NCBI GenBank assembly: GCA_006226595.1
Contig: SBGP01000012.1
Coordinates: forward strand, 1 to 64,000
Direction of reading: 5' to 3'
DNA: 64,000 nucleotides
DNA from: Deltaproteobacteria bacterium
Lineage (GTDB): Bacteria; Myxococcota_A; UBA796; GCA-2862545
How positions within the stretch are numbered: position 1 is the first letter of the stretch; each line of letters begins with the position of its first letter. The notes beneath the pieces are model-generated. The model saw nothing but the letters and a program-made list of their open reading frames with translations. It had not been told where the DNA came from and did not search any database. Position numbers and translations under genes: made by a program. Below, piece after piece: positions 53,071 to 64,000 of the stretch.

Positions 53071-53727
53071 TCAGCCCTTCACCGCCTGACGGATGGTCAC
53101 CAGACCACCGTTCGCGCCCGGCACGCCACCAACGAGGTAGACGAGGTTGCGCTCGGCGTCGATCTTGGCGATCTCGAGGTTCTGCACGGTCACGCGGACG
53201 GCGCCCATGTGGCCGCCCATCTTCTTGCCCTTCATGACCCGGCCGGGGGTCAGGCGGCAGCCGATGGAACCACCATGGCGGAAGAACTCGTGGGTACCGT
53301 GCGAGCGGATGAAGCCCTGGAAGTTGTGGCGCTTCATGACGCCGGCGAAGCCCTTGCCCTTGCTGGTGCCGATGACGTCGGCGCTCTGGCCGACCTCGAA
53401 CACGTCGGCGGCGTTCAGGGTCTGGCCGGGCTCGTAGTTGCCGACCGCGTCGCCGCTCACGCGGATCTCGCGGAGGTAGCGGACGCCGTTCTCGATGCCG
53501 GCCTTCTTGGTGTGACCGAGCTCGGCCTTGGTCAGGCGCTGGGCCTTCTGCTCGCCGAAGCCGAGCTGGAGGGCGTTGTAGCCGTCCTTGCCGTCGGCGG
53601 TCTTGACCTGGGTGACCGTGTTGGGGCCGACCTGGACGACGGTGCAGGGCTTGATGATGCCCTCGTCGCTGTAGATCTGGGTCATGCCGAGCTTACGGCC
53701 GAGGAGGCCCATCTTTTCGTTCGCCAT
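53071..53727 (-). CDS. rplC: 50S ribosomal protein L3
   Basis: A 218-residue L3 homologue. The N-terminus MGLLGRKLGMTQIY is the L3 signature, SKGKGFAGVMKRHNF follows at about 122, and the peptidyl-transferase-side extension SHGTHEFFRHGGSIG, PGRVMKGKKMGGHMG and TVQNLEI is present. The site of the PrmB-methylated Gln of E. coli L3 carries Leu here, as in many bacteria. The gene is not inside an S10 operon: the gene upstream on the same strand is an OmpA fusion and the one downstream is acetoacetyl-CoA synthetase. SD GGAG. Confidence 0.95.
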   Translation of the reverse strand: MANEKMGLLGRKLGMTQIYSDEGIIKPCTVVQVGPNTVTQVKTADGKDGYNALQLGFGEQKAQRLTKAELGHTKKAGIENGVRYLREIRVSGDAVGNYEPGQTLNAADVFEVGQSADVIGTSKGKGFAGVMKRHNFQGFIRSHGTHEFFRHGGSIGCRLTPGRVMKGKKMGGHMGAVRVTVQNLEIAKIDAERNLVYLVGGVPGANGGLVTIRQAVKG

Positions 53728-53925: not shown

Positions 53926-57750
<3,825 letters not shown>

Positions 57751-57944
57751 AGAGTGCTCCATGAAAAGGCGCGGTCAAAGGACCACCGCCAACCGCAGAT
57801 ACCCCGCTCTCGCTGCGAGAGGCAACACCTGTTCGTGAACGGTGCCTGTCTCTCGGCTATTCATGCCGGAGATCCCGGAATTCTCGGGCGCGCCTCGCTT
57901 TTCGATCCGTCGATCGCCGATCCGCACAATGCGTCGATCCAAAC

Positions 57945-57990: not shown

Positions 57991-58722
57991 CTAGAAGGAG
58001 AACTTCGCGTAGCCGGTGGCGATGACGCCGAGGTCCCAGTTGATCATGTAGGCGACGTCCACGTCCGCGCCCACGGAGAAGTGGGAGAGCTTGGTGTAGT
58101 ACTCGACCGTCGGGCCGCCGAAGCCGAACGGGTGGATCGAGTTGTGTACGCCCGGGTCGACGCCCCAGTAGGTGACGACGTCGGTCGCGTAGGTCTGCTC
58201 GTGGATGAGCAGGGGGCTGTACATCACGCCGCCACCGAGACGGACGCCGATGCCGAGGCGACGCGCCGGGTAGATCGAGAACTCGTAGGCGCCCGAGCCC
58301 TGGAAGGTGCGCGTGTCGCCCTGGATGTACTGCGGCACGCCGACGTCGCGCTGCAGGTCCCAGTGCATGCCGTTGTGCAGGCCGGTGGTGAACGCGACCT
58401 CCCACGCCATGGAGCGACGCTCCTGGTCGAGGAAGTCCTGGCCGAGGGTGAGCGCCATGGTGGTGCCAGAGCGCAGCACGCCGCTGCCGTAGTTCAGCAG
58501 GTACGCGGTGGTGCCCATTCCGGCCTTGATGTACAGGCCGCGCTCGATCTCGCGGATGACCTCGGTCTCGGCCGCCGCAGCGCCAGCCGCCTTCTTCTTC
58601 TTCGAAGCCTTCTTGCCGCCGTCGGCGTCGAGGTCCTCGATGCTCGACTGGGCCCACGCCGACGACGTGAGGGTCGGCATGACGCAGAGGGCGAGCAGGA
58701 GCGGGGAGAGCTTGTTCAGCAT
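57991..58722 (-). CDS. Small outer-membrane beta-barrel protein (GltH/CglE-like candidate)
   Basis: A 243-residue exported protein. Signal peptide LSPLLLALCVMPTLTSSAWA; residues 35-55 are Lys/Ala-rich (KKASKKKKAAGAAAAE); the rest alternates short amphipathic strands (GLYIKAGMGTTAYLL, MAWEVAFTTGLHNGM, YEFSIYPARRLGIGVRLGGG, FSVGADVDVAYMIN) and ends in Phe (GYAKFSF), typical of a small outer-membrane barrel. Its position directly after an FHA-PglI-C gene resembles gltG-gltH and nfsG-nfsH in Myxococcus; the link is inference. SD GAGGAA. It has its own terminator. Confidence 0.8.
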   Translation of the reverse strand: MLNKLSPLLLALCVMPTLTSSAWAQSSIEDLDADGGKKASKKKKAAGAAAAETEVIREIERGLYIKAGMGTTAYLLNYGSGVLRSGTTMALTLGQDFLDQERRSMAWEVAFTTGLHNGMHWDLQRDVGVPQYIQGDTRTFQGSGAYEFSIYPARRLGIGVRLGGGVMYSPLLIHEQTYATDVVTYWGVDPGVHNSIHPFGFGGPTVEYYTKLSHFSVGADVDVAYMINWDLGVIATGYAKFSF

Positions 58723-59101
58723 GGATTTCCTCGGCGGATTGCAGTCCGCAGTGACAGGCACGTTTATCACACGCTTGTCGTCACCGGAACCAGTCTTCCC
58801 GGCCATCAAGCGGTCCTGACATTCTCTGGATGAGCCGGCACTCAGCGAGATGGTCCATCTAGACCCGCGACCCTGGGTTTCCGCCGGTTCATGGGTGTTG
58901 GTGGTCAGTCGATCGCGTGGCTCGTCCACGTGTGCGAGAGTCGTCAACTGACAGGGGTGAGGGCGCGAAGGTCCAGGAGCTCCGGGCACGAAAAAGCCCG
59001 CTCCGAGGAGCGGGCTTCGCGTTCTCACGCCTCGGGCGATCAGCCCGGGGCGAACAGGCCCCCGAGGCGATCAGCCCGGGGCGAACAGGCCCCCGAGGCG
59101 A
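58723..59101. other. Region between FHA-PglI-C and barrel-protein genes
   Basis: This 379-bp gap holds a strong terminator for the upstream gene, two extra copies of that gene's 3' end, and the promoter region of the barrel-protein gene (with GTGTGATAAACG on the minus strand about 50 nt before its ATG as a possible -10 area). No additional gene was seen. Confidence 0.6.
58991..59017 (-). terminator. Rho-independent terminator of the FHA-PglI-C gene
   Basis: On the minus strand AAGCCCGCTCC pairs with GGAGCGGGCTT (11 bp) and is followed by TTTTTCG. It separates the FHA gene from the barrel-protein gene, so the two are different transcription units. Confidence 0.9.
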
Positions 59102-59119
59102 TCAGCCCGGGGCGAACAG
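59037..59119. repeat. 31-bp tandem repeat copying the 3' end of the FHA-PglI-C gene
   Basis: Two full 31-bp units (59037-59067, 59068-59098) and a third partial one (from 59099) share CGATCAGCCCGGGGCGAACA. The third unit contains the real stop codon and the last codons (FAPG); the first two are copies lying just beyond the stop. Confidence 0.88.
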
Positions 59120-61105
59120 GAACGGGTAGGAGACGATGACGATACCGCCGCCCTTCGGCTGCGGGAACTGCATCCGCATGAAGCGTCCGGACACGCAGGA
59201 CTCGACCGCGGAGTTGTTCATCGTCGTGGTCTTCACGTTCGCGCTGGAGACGCTGCCGTCCTTGGCGATGACGAACTTGATGACGATCTTGCCGCCGAGG
59301 CTCGGGCTCTTGGTGAGCTCGCGCTGGTAGCAGTAGCGAATCGCGTTCATGTGGCGCTTGATGACTTCGTCGATGAGCGAGCGGTCGAGGGCACCGAGGA
59401 TGATCGGGTCGCCACCGACGCGGCCGATGCCGCCTTCGCCCTTGGCGCCGAAGTTACCGCCGCCGGAGCCGTAGCCGCTGGCGCCGGAGCCCATGCCCTT
59501 GGTGCCGAGGCCGCCGAGGCCTTCCGCGGTACCGCCGCCGCCGAGACCGCCGCCACGGGAGCCGAGGCCGCCGGAGCCGATCTGGGTGCCCTTGGCGCCG
59601 ATGAGGCCGCCGATGCCGCCGGTGAGGCTGGAGTCGAGGGCGGAGGAGCCGAACACGCCGTCCATGGCGCCGTTGTCGGACAGGGCGCCGAGGAGGCCGG
59701 CGTTCTCGGCAATCTGCTTGTCGAGCTCGCGCTTCTGGATCTCGACCTTGTTGCCCTTGGCCTTCTCCATCTTCGCTTCTTTCTTGCCGACCTTGCCCTC
59801 TTCGCGCTTGGCCTTGGCACCCTCACCCGCGTCGGGGTTGCCCGAGGGCTTCTTCTTCTCCTCGACCGGCTCGGGCTTCTGGATGAGAAGCTCGACGAAG
59901 CGGTCGGGGATCTCGACCATCTCGTTCTGCGGGCGGGACTCGCCGGTGTACAGGAAGACACCGAAGACCAGGCCGATGAACGCGATGACGGAGAAGATGG
60001 CGAGGAAGGGGTAGTCCACGTCCTCGGTCAGGCGCGCGATGATGCGCTTGCCGCGGTGGACGTTGTGCGCGAAGAACACGACGCCGTCGACATCCACCAC
60101 GAGGCGGGTGTCGTCGCTCATCGGGATCTCGTAGCCGTTGCCGCTCTTCTTCGCGTGGCCCGCGGAGACGAGCTCGTCGAAGCTGTGGCGGCTCTCGCCG
60201 ATGTCGACGAAGCCATCCCAGTTCGAGCTGACCTCGGCGACGTAGCGCTCACCGTCCCACTTGAACAGGTTGTGCTCGGTGCCGCCGAGCTTGTCGTCGG
60301 GAGCGTAGAAGTCGTTCTTCCACTCGGAGACGACCTCGGACCACATCGGCGGGGTGAACTTGAGCACCTGGTGCACGCCGGTCGGCACCCAGCCCATGTT
60401 CACGCCGAGGAAGTTCCACTTCCAGCCGGTGGAGGCGCCGATGGAGACCGGCTTGCCCTCGGGGAGGAAGTGCTTGGTGTCGAGGAGGAGGTCCTCCCAG
60501 ATCTGGTTGACCTCGAGGACCTTCGGACGGGTCTTGTCGATGCCGAGACCGCTGGTCGCCGTGCCGGACCGCATGATCCAGGCCATGACGTCCTCGACCT
60601 CGTTGATCCCGTCGGGATCCGCGTCGGTCTCCTCGTCCTCGCTCGGGACGTCGGCGATGACGCCACCGGCGCCGAGCGGCTCCGGCTCGTCGTCCTCGTC
60701 GAGCGCGTCGTCGTCGAAGGAGGCGGCCTCCATCTCGCGGGCGAGCTCGGCGGGGTCCATGGCGACCATGGTCGCCTCTTCTTCGTCGAAGGCCTCGGGC
60801 ACGTGCACGGCCACGACGATGCGGAGCTCACCGATCTGGATCGAGTCACCGGAGGTGACCGAACCGTTGGTGACGGGCTCGCCATTGAGCCTGGTGCCAC
60901 CGTCGGCGCCGAGGTCGGCGATGTTGAGGCTGTCGCCAGAGACGTTGAGCACCGCGTGCAGGTCGGCGACGCCGTCGCCGTCGACGCGAAGCGCGGCGGC
61001 CTCGCCCTTGCCGATGGTGATGCTGGGCTGCGAGAACTCCGCGGTCTTGATCAGGGAATCACCGCGGTAGACCTCAAAGGTCAGCACCTGGCTCTCGTTG
61101 GCCAT
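59102..61105 (-). CDS. FHA-TM-AgmX/PglI C-terminal domain protein (GltG-like)
   Basis: A 667-residue inner-membrane protein. An FHA domain covers 1-95 (ITIGKGEAAALRV, ADLHAVL, GTRLNGE); the classical GR and SXXH positions read GK and ADLH, so phospho-Thr binding is doubtful. An acidic linker follows, then a cytoplasmic domain of about 200-365 with a VLEVNQIWEDLLLDT core, one TM (FLAIFSVIAFIGLVFGVFLY), a long Pro/Lys/Gly-rich periplasmic spacer and the C-terminal AgmX/PglI domain (about 570-667: DRSLIDEVIKRHMNAIRYCY, then SCVSGRFMRMQFP). In Myxococcus, GltG and GltJ of the gliding/spore-coat machines have this layout and move force across the periplasm in a TonB-like way. SD GGAGAG. Confidence 0.87.
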   Translation of the reverse strand: MANESQVLTFEVYRGDSLIKTAEFSQPSITIGKGEAAALRVDGDGVADLHAVLNVSGDSLNIADLGADGGTRLNGEPVTNGSVTSGDSIQIGELRIVVAVHVPEAFDEEEATMVAMDPAELAREMEAASFDDDALDEDDEPEPLGAGGVIADVPSEDEETDADPDGINEVEDVMAWIMRSGTATSGLGIDKTRPKVLEVNQIWEDLLLDTKHFLPEGKPVSIGASTGWKWNFLGVNMGWVPTGVHQVLKFTPPMWSEVVSEWKNDFYAPDDKLGGTEHNLFKWDGERYVAEVSSNWDGFVDIGESRHSFDELVSAGHAKKSGNGYEIPMSDDTRLVVDVDGVVFFAHNVHRGKRIIARLTEDVDYPFLAIFSVIAFIGLVFGVFLYTGESRPQNEMVEIPDRFVELLIQKPEPVEEKKKPSGNPDAGEGAKAKREEGKVGKKEAKMEKAKGNKVEIQKRELDKQIAENAGLLGALSDNGAMDGVFGSSALDSSLTGGIGGLIGAKGTQIGSGGLGSRGGGLGGGGTAEGLGGLGTKGMGSGASGYGSGGGNFGAKGEGGIGRVGGDPIILGALDRSLIDEVIKRHMNAIRYCYQRELTKSPSLGGKIVIKFVIAKDGSVSSANVKTTTMNNSAVESCVSGRFMRMQFPQPKGGGIVIVSYPFLFAPG

Positions 61106-61198
61106 GAGAACTCTCCGAGAGTTGGGAGAAGAAGAGGAAGAGGGGTTCTTGCCGAAGGCGTCGACCGTGCTGTCAGGCGGGTCGACATCGGGGAGGTC

Positions 61199-61456
61199 TT
61201 ACTTGACCTCGTCGATGGACTGCTTCATCTCGTCGTTCCAGTGCTCGCGCAGCCGGATCAGCGGGTTGAAGTTGGCCTTCTTGCGGGAGAGGAGCAGGGA
61301 GCCCTCGGGCTTGACCAGCTCACCGGTCACGTCCACGGACTCGAAGTCGATCTCGGTGCGCTCCTTGTACTTGACGGCGGTTTCGCCTTCGTCCTGGGCG
61401 AGCGCGGGGCTCGCGAAGACGCTGAAGGCGGCCAGAAGAGCGAGAGTACGAGTCAT
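61199..61456 (-). CDS. Small periplasmic protein
   Basis: An 85-residue protein with signal peptide ending ASPALAQ. The mature part of about 65 residues is charged (KYKERTEIDFESVDVTGEL, LLLSRKKANFNPL, HWNDEMKQSIDEVK), with no Cys. SD AGGAACTCC with a GGAGG core precedes the ATG. It sits between the two PglI-C genes and 93 nt before the FHA gene, so it probably works with them. Not recognised as a family. Confidence 0.72.
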   Translation of the reverse strand: MTRTLALLAAFSVFASPALAQDEGETAVKYKERTEIDFESVDVTGELVKPEGSLLLSRKKANFNPLIRLREHWNDEMKQSIDEVK

Positions 61457-61660
61457 GGAGTTCCTCCGGTGTTGGACCCGCTTGGTTGCCGGCGTGCGGG
61501 ATCCTGAACACGTGCGAATGCAAGCGGCATTCTTAGGTGTCAGGGGTCCCCGCACAAGCTGAGGGGGGTCATTTTCGGGTCAAGCAGGACTGACAGGGGC
61601 TTGATGCGGCGGTTCCCGAGGTTTCGTCAAGGAGATGCAAGCCCCGTCTCCTGACGAAGA

Positions 61661-61704
61661 AACCCGCAACTGGGCCGATCCGATTCGGACCGACCCGCTG
61701 CGGG
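61661..61704 (-). terminator. Possible terminator of the second PglI-C gene
   Basis: On the minus strand CCCGCA pairs with TGCGGG over a long loop containing a CCGAATCGG inner hairpin, followed by TTTCTTC. It is a weaker form than the two terminators further left. Confidence 0.4.
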
Positions 61705-61711
61705 AGAGGCC

Positions 61712-63151
61712 TCATCCGGGAGCAAACAGGAACGGGTAGCTGACGATCACGATGCCGCCGCCCTTGGGCTTCGGGAACTGCATCTTCAGGAAGCGCCCGA
61801 CGACGCAGGACTCGACGGCGTCGTTGCCGAGGGAGCTGCGCTTGGGGGTGGCCCGGGCGACGGAGCCGTCCCCGGCGATCGTGAACCCGACGACGATCTT
61901 GCCGCTCAGATCGGGCTCGCGCTGCAGCTCCTGCTGGTAGCAGTAGCGGATCGCCGGCATGTGGCGCTTGATGACCTCGTCGATGAGCGAGCGGTCCATG
62001 TTGCCGATGAGGATCGCGTCCTGGACCTGCGGCACGCTGGAGCCCGGCTTGGTCCCGTCCCCGCCGATCACGCCGATGGGCGCGGCACCGCAGTCCTCGA
62101 TGTTGCCGATGCACCGCCCCTGGATCGTCGTCGTCTCGGCGTTGCCGCCGCCGCCCGGCCCGAAGCCGCGGTCGCCGAGGCCACCGTGGCCGAGCTGAAC
62201 ACCGCGCTTTCCGACGAGGCCGCCGATGCTGTTCTCGAGGCCGTCGGCGAGACCGCCGCTGCTGAGGCCGGCGAGGGACGGGTCGCCCCAGGCCTGGAAG
62301 ATGCCGCTGTTGTTCACCGCCTGGCGGTCGCGCTCGTCGCCCTTGGCGGCCTTGGTCTTCACCTTCTTTCCCTGGCGCTCGCCCGGCGTACCCTCGTCGC
62401 CCTTGGCCTTCGGCTTGGGAGCCGCGACGTCTTCGACCTTCGGGGCCGGCGGCGGCGGCTCGGGCGCCTGGTACACGAGGCTCACGATCTCCTGCGGGAT
62501 CTCGACGACTTCGTTCTTCGGCGTGGGCGGCTGGTTCCACATGGCGATGCCGAACAGAAGTCCGAGGCCGGCGACGACGGAGAACATGCCGGCAAAGGGA
62601 CCGTCCGGTCCGATCTGCGGTCGCCCGGCGAGCGAGGCGGGGGCCCGCACCCTGGAGAACACGAGCGAGACGCTGTCTCGCCGCAGGCGCAGCACGGCGT
62701 CGGTGGGCACGGAGATCGTCTCCTCGGCGACGAAGGCCCAGTTCTGGCCGTGACCCCCGACTTCCGCCGTCCAGCCGCGCGGCACGTGGACGACGGCCTC
62801 GCCCTCCTCCCAGCGCACGAGCTCGAGCTTCTCCTCGCCGTCGAGCAGCTCGGATGGGGCGAAGAGGTCGCAGGTCGGCCGCTGGTCGACCTCGCTCCAC
62901 AGGGGTGGCGCGACGGCCGCGAGGTGACGGAACTCCGGTCGGATCCACCCCATGTCGATGCCGAGGCAGCTCCACCGCCAGCCGACGGCGTCGCCGACGG
63001 TGAGGGCAGGGGAGTCGGGCAGGTGGTGCTGGGTGTCGAGCACCAGGTCGTCCCAAAGCAGGTGCACCTCGAGGACGCGCGGGGCGTGGCCGCGAAGGGC
63101 GAGGTTGCTGCTGCCGGTGTCGGTGCGGCGGATGAAGTCGGGCGTGTGCAT
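61712..63151 (-). CDS. FHA-less AgmX/PglI C-terminal domain protein, paralogue of the FHA gene
   Basis: A 479-residue protein that lacks the FHA domain but otherwise parallels its neighbour: VLEVHLLWDDLVLDTQHHLP near the start, GWRWSCLGIDMGW, one TM (FSVVAGLGLLFGIAMW), a Pro/Lys and Gly-rich spacer with a loop of two Cys (CIGNIEDC), and the C-terminal domain (DRSLIDEVIKRHMPAIRYCY ... SCVVGRFLKMQFPKPKGG, ending FLFAPG as in the paralogue). It may pair with the FHA protein in one complex. The ATG has AGGAG upstream; a GTG 7 codons earlier is less likely. Confidence 0.85.
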   Translation of the reverse strand: MHTPDFIRRTDTGSSNLALRGHAPRVLEVHLLWDDLVLDTQHHLPDSPALTVGDAVGWRWSCLGIDMGWIRPEFRHLAAVAPPLWSEVDQRPTCDLFAPSELLDGEEKLELVRWEEGEAVVHVPRGWTAEVGGHGQNWAFVAEETISVPTDAVLRLRRDSVSLVFSRVRAPASLAGRPQIGPDGPFAGMFSVVAGLGLLFGIAMWNQPPTPKNEVVEIPQEIVSLVYQAPEPPPPAPKVEDVAAPKPKAKGDEGTPGERQGKKVKTKAAKGDERDRQAVNNSGIFQAWGDPSLAGLSSGGLADGLENSIGGLVGKRGVQLGHGGLGDRGFGPGGGGNAETTTIQGRCIGNIEDCGAAPIGVIGGDGTKPGSSVPQVQDAILIGNMDRSLIDEVIKRHMPAIRYCYQQELQREPDLSGKIVVGFTIAGDGSVARATPKRSSLGNDAVESCVVGRFLKMQFPKPKGGGIVIVSYPFLFAPG

Positions 63152-63343: not shown

Positions 63344-63712
63344 CTAGCGCTTCAACTTCGGCAGGTGCCCGGTTGCCGCGAAGACCAGCTCCCGAAGGCC
63401 CTCCACCTCGAGGTCTTCGACCCGCGCGATGCGCATGCTGCGCATGGCCTTGCCGGTGCCACCGATCAGCCCGTGAGGATCGGGGAGGTCCGCGCCGTAG
63501 TAGAAGCCGAGGTTCAGGTGCTTCGCGTACGCGCTGATGTAGCAGTACTGCTCGCTCATCTTCTTCGGGCCCACGCCGAAGCCGGCGGTCTTCTGCCGAG
63601 GCCAGCCCACCTCGACGACGTCGGGGTCGATGTCCCGGATCAGTGCGCGGGCCGCGTCGAATAGCGGCAAGACTTCGGGGCTCAGCGCTTCGCGCAGCTC
63701 GTCGATGGACAT
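63344..63712 (-). CDS. DUF1801 domain protein
   Basis: A 122-residue cytoplasmic protein of the YdhG/DUF1801 type. Characteristic features are ARALIRDIDPDVVEVGWPRQ at about 21-40, FGVGPKKMSEQYCYISAYAKHLNLGFYYG split over 45-75, and MRSMRIARVEDL near the C-terminus. The biochemical role is unknown; the fold is shared with frataxin and YjbR-like proteins. GGAGGT is 4 nt from the ATG. Confidence 0.85.
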   Translation of the reverse strand: MSIDELREALSPEVLPLFDAARALIRDIDPDVVEVGWPRQKTAGFGVGPKKMSEQYCYISAYAKHLNLGFYYGADLPDPHGLIGGTGKAMRSMRIARVEDLEVEGLRELVFAATGHLPKLKR

Positions 63713-63805: not shown

Positions 63806-64000
63806 CTACTCGCCGCCGCCCTCGGCGGGGGCTTCCTCGGCCGGAGCCTCTTCGCCCTCGGGCAGCTCGCCGCCCTCTTCCTCGGCCGGCAGCTCTTCGC
63901 CACCACCGCCGCCGGCGCCACACGCGGCGATGCCATCGTCGATGGTCGGCTCGTAGTAGTCGTCGAACATCGACTTCATGTCGGGAGCCATGCTGGTCTC
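63806..64000 (-). CDS. C-terminal part of acidic Pro/Glu/Ala-rich protein
   Basis: A frame that is open to the right edge of the window. The visible part has FDDYYEPTIDDGIAACGAGG followed by Gly-rich and EE-rich repeats (EELPAEEEGG, EEAPAEEAPAEGGGE). The Met at base 63991 could be the start, but no SD can be checked, so the gene is probably truncated by the window. The acidic, low-complexity tail suggests a spacer or secreted protein; family unknown. Confidence 0.5.
   Translation of the reverse strand, partial: ETSMAPDMKSMFDDYYEPTIDDGIAACGAGGGGGEELPAEEEGGELPEGEEAPAEEAPAEGGGE

Follow-up and report, generated by a model that had tools for sequence, protein, structure and literature searches.

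The Glt and Nfs machines have been studied chiefly in Myxococcus xanthus, where the Nfs complex (NfsA-H) assembles the spore coat and gliding relies on Glt proteins encoded in two clusters, G1 and G2, together with the AglRQS motor (M1). The nfsA-H genes form a single cluster that is paralogous to gltA-H and lacks I, J and K, and a core complex has been described in which aglRQS occurs with gltC, D, E and G (Group B; Luciano et al. 2011; PMC3169522). A single AglRQS motor serves both machines in M. xanthus, acting via GltG and NfsG, respectively (PMC3858216), and the protein CglF is known to be GltF (PMC4488436). Here we compare these systems with a locus in a 64,000-nucleotide stretch of DNA (the window) from a member of an uncultured Myxococcota class. 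The four consecutive genes and the neighbour ending in an OmpA domain that a preliminary description had noted are present, all on the minus strand (Table 1), and the relationship to Glt and Nfs that it proposed is borne out by curated profiles, by synteny and by trees. The small outer-membrane barrel matches the GltH/CglE profile at 89 bits, above the cut-off of 70; judging by gene position, we take CglE to be GltH. The small periplasmic protein is identified by profile as GltF/CglF, with a score of 62.5 bits (E 2.9e-17) that lies below the equivalog cut-off of 90. As had been predicted, both paralogous membrane proteins carry the AgmX/PglI-C domain, which scores 107.5 bits in GltG and 102 bits in the second copy, referred to here as GltG2, and GltG additionally contains an FHA domain (32 bits). 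The DUF1801 gene that separates gltE from gltG2 is missing from this gap in the same-genus genome G001 (locus L233), and it is therefore probably not part of the machine.

Table 1. Genes of the locus and its flanks, in window coordinates.
Feature	Position	Strand	Basis
gltE 3' end, TPR lipoprotein	63806..64000	-	NF033758 E 2.6e-38; whole gene at contig C63 63806-65326
DUF1801 gene, between gltE and gltG2	63344..63712	-	PF08818
GltG2	61712..63151	-	NCBIfam, alignments, tree, AlphaFold2 model and fold search
GltF/CglF, small exported periplasmic protein, 85 aa	61199..61456	-	NF033764, position as in relatives
GltG: FHA, second FHA-like domain, TM, PglI/TonB-like C-terminal domain	59102..61105	-	PF00498, NF033760, NF033768, alignment
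GltH/CglE outer-membrane barrel	57991..58722	-	NF033755
MopE/TSP3-type MYXO-CTERM-like surface protein and OmpA/TraB-like protein, in-frame fusion	53926..57762	-	PF11617, PF00691, TraB model
rplC (ribosomal protein L3), conserved to the right of the cluster	53071..53727	-	PF00297

The locus had been taken for a compact and perhaps reduced machine in which GltD, GltE, GltF and other core genes were not seen. This reading is rejected, as the cluster seemed reduced because the window edge cuts through it, and the missing genes were found on the other side of that edge. GltF is itself one of the four genes, and contig C63, which continues past the window to 91 kb, carries the remainder: GltE, which starts at the edge, is followed by a GltD-like gene (65345-68554; identified from its position, from TPR profiles and from the GltD tree), by GltC (68584-70410; 238 bits) and, adjoining GltC, by two TIGR04565 barrels of the GltA/GltB type (97 and 99 bits, cut-off 60). 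Beyond the barrels lie a ~300-residue lipoprotein for which the profile search returned no family match, a TonB-dependent receptor (TBDT), TonB, ExbD and ExbB. The TBDT (73452-76391; locus L020) comprises TonB_C, CarboxypepD_reg and Plug domains, and its own TonB_C domain sits ahead of the plug. Homologues of GltC, D, E, F, G and H and the A/B-type barrel pair are all found in this one cluster, and by gene content the four window genes are the tail end of what appears to be a complete machine of the Glt/Nfs type.

GltG2 scores 169 bits against the GltG model and 43 bits against the GltJ model, and its candidacy as GltJ was rejected on these scores and on its placement in the order's GltG clade. 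The GltG tree puts every second copy inside this clade, so duplication took place within the order, on one or several occasions. An AlphaFold2 model of GltG2 has a mean pLDDT of 65.6, rising to about 85 in two domains. The N-terminal domain (residues 29-177) is predicted to adopt an FHA-like fold, the best FHA match in the fold search giving a Z value of 8.7 over 101 residues at 3.1 Å; such Z values are moderate, although the same residues are matched by many FHA domains. A TM helix at residues 191-212 leads into a disordered Gly-rich linker, and residues 381-486 form a predicted TonB-like domain that superimposes on the C-terminal domain of Helicobacter pylori TonB (Z 9.6, 99 residues at 2.9 Å). 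A sequence profile search of the PDB gave no relevant match. The preliminary description had called this protein FHA-less, which holds insofar as Pfam detects no FHA domain in it, but not for the predicted structure. In alignments, the FHA-like region of GltG2 corresponds to the stretch behind the canonical FHA domain of GltG; GltG would thus have two domains of the FHA type, against one in GltG2. On this evidence, GltG2 is a paralogue of GltG that has lost the first FHA domain and retains the second, divergent one, predicted to be FHA-like.

The cluster is widely conserved among relatives, nearly all of which are represented by MAGs in the contig scan. GltH was matched in 54 of 58 genomes, counting the window's own, and in all 27 of the good ones. 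The order TBDT-(lipoprotein)-barrels-GltC-D-E-F-G-H is kept in all 19 assessable genomes of the order (the window's own, G001 and 17 others), apart from minor deviations (for example, a barrel or gltG that was not detected), and the TBDT-to-GltH order recurs in four of four genomes from two other families of the class. Gene maps of the locus were drawn for 19 order genomes, and seven of these contain GltG2, as does G001. In four genomes, the window's among them, the second copy precedes gltF, and in the remaining ones it comes after gltG. At two loci (L066 in G010 and L067 in G017), gltH directly follows gltF, with no gltG at the locus. By gene content and order, the new features of the cluster are its tight genetic linkage to a TBDT and the recurring second copy of GltG, the putative force-transmitting protein.

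Although homologues of GltC to GltH, an A/B-type barrel pair and a GltH/CglE above cut-off are shared with the gliding machine, several observations place the class cluster on the Nfs side of the family. The A-H genes lie in one cluster rather than being split into G1 and G2, which is an Nfs trait, and no AglRQS-type motor is encoded in the operon. For comparison we used a Myxococcaceae MAG that holds a gliding-type cluster, a core-type cluster and a single-operon A-H cluster, G153_b, which was taken as nfs on the strength of its layout rather than of any named sequence of M. xanthus. The class cluster joins this nfs-like cluster in the GltD tree (98/95) and in a concatenated D+E+F+G tree (100/100), which rejects a forced grouping with the G1 cluster for gliding (p-AU 1.8e-7); the two Myxococcaceae rows have long branches, so these trees are to be read with caution. 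The GltG of the Myxococcaceae G1 cluster reaches 865 bits, over the equivalog cut-off of 650, whereas the window GltG scores only 365. Among the roles that had been offered for the locus (motility, polysaccharide export or another trans-envelope task), the trees speak for the Nfs side rather than for gliding of the G1 kind. The cluster could nonetheless be a functional counterpart of the M. xanthus G1/G2 gliding machine that merely branches with Nfs, as the genome encodes every A-H type component together with an AglRQS-like motor, the TM helix of GltG lacks the TonB-type histidine, as in gliding GltG, and two GTPases resembling MglA are present (47% and 35% identity to a Myxococcota MglA). 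We consider this quite unlikely in view of the rejected grouping and the GltG score. Moreover, a direct MglA query found no match in three class genomes with a full cluster (G065, G140 and G148), and the GltJ model found none over its cut-off in the window's own genome, although none of the 16 genomes searched passed that cut-off. The Arf profile PF00025 proved useless as a test for MglA, as it missed the homologues that the direct query found in the window's own genome. The idea that the G5 cluster of M. xanthus (MXAN_1327/MXAN_1316) is the counterpart came from locus numbers, and the literature held nothing bearing on it.

The preliminary description had also seen no AglRQS-type motor genes. 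None lies in the cluster, which has ExbB-ExbD-TonB instead, but a genome-wide look located a TolQ gene and two TolR/ExbD-type genes both on contig C53 and on contig C36, and on C53 they stand together with GltC-, GltD-, GltE- and GltG-like genes, the gene set of the core complex. Each of the 20 genomes searched gave a match to an AglR-like protein. By analogy with M. xanthus, whose single AglRQS set gives a precedent for a motor acting in trans, the C53 set may drive the window cluster. The TolQ/TolR-like genes on C63 were rejected as AglRQS after translation; they adjoin TonB and the TBDT and therefore form a Ton system. This local ExbB/ExbD pair, which adjoins the cluster at 15 of 19 order loci and four of four other class loci, could serve as the motor instead, the Ton module then being integral to one machine that couples TBDT substrate transport to Glt/Nfs-type surface transport. 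The unbroken linkage of the TBDT is consistent with such coupling, which we nevertheless regard as rather doubtful: the SxxxH motif in the TM helix is kept by the cluster's TonB and absent from GltG and GltG2, ExbB/ExbD is gone from four order loci that retain the TBDT (G002, G003, G006 and G048), and no Ton genes were found next to the Glt clusters of other classes that were examined. Alternatively, the Ton genes may sit there as part of a frozen operon neighbourhood, with no functional coupling at all. Position can evidently be kept without function, because the housekeeping gene rplC is also a fixed neighbour, found behind gltH in most genomes of the class. This explanation, to which we give a clear minority of our confidence, has to contend with the Ton-side genes being co-directional and tightly packed with the glt genes over several families and orders, and with G023, in which the TBDT-lipoprotein pair remains with GltH although the other glt genes lie elsewhere. 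The rplC gene was also seen beside the nfs-like operon of the Myxococcaceae MAG and beside a GltJ-like gene of G131.

On balance, we favour, with somewhat more confidence than doubt, a reading in which the locus is the gltE-(gltG2)-gltF-gltG-gltH end of a complete Nfs-side trans-envelope machine with its motor in trans, moving surface cargo. The whole machine would read ExbB-ExbD-TonB-TBDT-lipoprotein-barrel-barrel-GltC-D-E-(G2)-F-G-H. GltG and GltG2 would be TonB-like force transducers of the inner membrane, each built from cytoplasmic FHA or FHA-like domains, one TM helix, a long Gly-rich linker and a TonB-type C-terminal domain; they resemble TonB and TolA in the helix, linker and C-terminal domain, and differ from them in the cytoplasmic domains and the missing SxxxH. 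They would pass proton-motive-force-driven motion from the AglRQS-type motor encoded on C53 through the periplasmic TPR proteins GltC, GltD and GltE, and through GltF, to the outer-membrane barrels (the A/B-type pair and GltH), so that a surface polymer or other surface cargo is moved or assembled. The linked TBDT and Ton system probably serve the same task by moving a substrate through the outer membrane. We lean towards surface cargo and away from gliding because of the Nfs-side placement, the lack of a GltJ match over cut-off in the window's own genome and the three genomes without a match to MglA, and the machine is probably a proton-motive-force-driven surface-transport device of the Nfs clade, with a polymer or something else as its cargo, rather than a classical gliding apparatus. 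It differs from M. xanthus Nfs in its linked TBDT-TonB-ExbBD module, its extra lipoprotein and, in some genomes, its second GltG; Nfs builds spore coats, whereas this class gives no evidence of spores, and no linkage of the cluster to genes for spore coats or polymer synthesis was shown. From the core complex it differs in having F, H and barrels and no AglRQS of its own. A complete single-cluster version that is kept over an uncultured Myxococcota class and branches with Nfs bears on whether gliding or surface-polymer transport came first. The fixed TBDT neighbour is a concrete candidate for the route of the cargo to the surface, and the recurring second GltG, with one remaining FHA-type domain, offers a natural test of the role of the cytoplasmic domains.

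Several further observations concern related gene sets and the neighbouring fusion gene. A third motor set, on contig C36 (137058-139918; L025), consists of TonB-TolQ-ExbD and, after these, an ExbD to which a PglI-C domain is fused (276 aa). In G131 (contig C69; L117-L118), the genes that come after a core-type GltC/D/E/G cluster resemble, when read by eye, polysaccharide-export and sugar-nucleotide genes. The fusion gene adjoins the machine and is a candidate member of it. With its MYXO-CTERM-like part and its OmpA part (PF00691, 83 bits; TraB model, 194 bits), it recalls the TraA/TraB outer-membrane exchange pair, but it is a single frame, has a MopE/TSP3-like N-terminal part and scores far under the TraB cut-off of 700. 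A tag-like stretch in the middle of the frame is followed by a signal-peptide-like stretch. The fusion is kept in the same-genus MAG G001 (L232:1677-5465), and in G010, G009, G037 and G006 two separate genes that overlap by a few bases are found instead.
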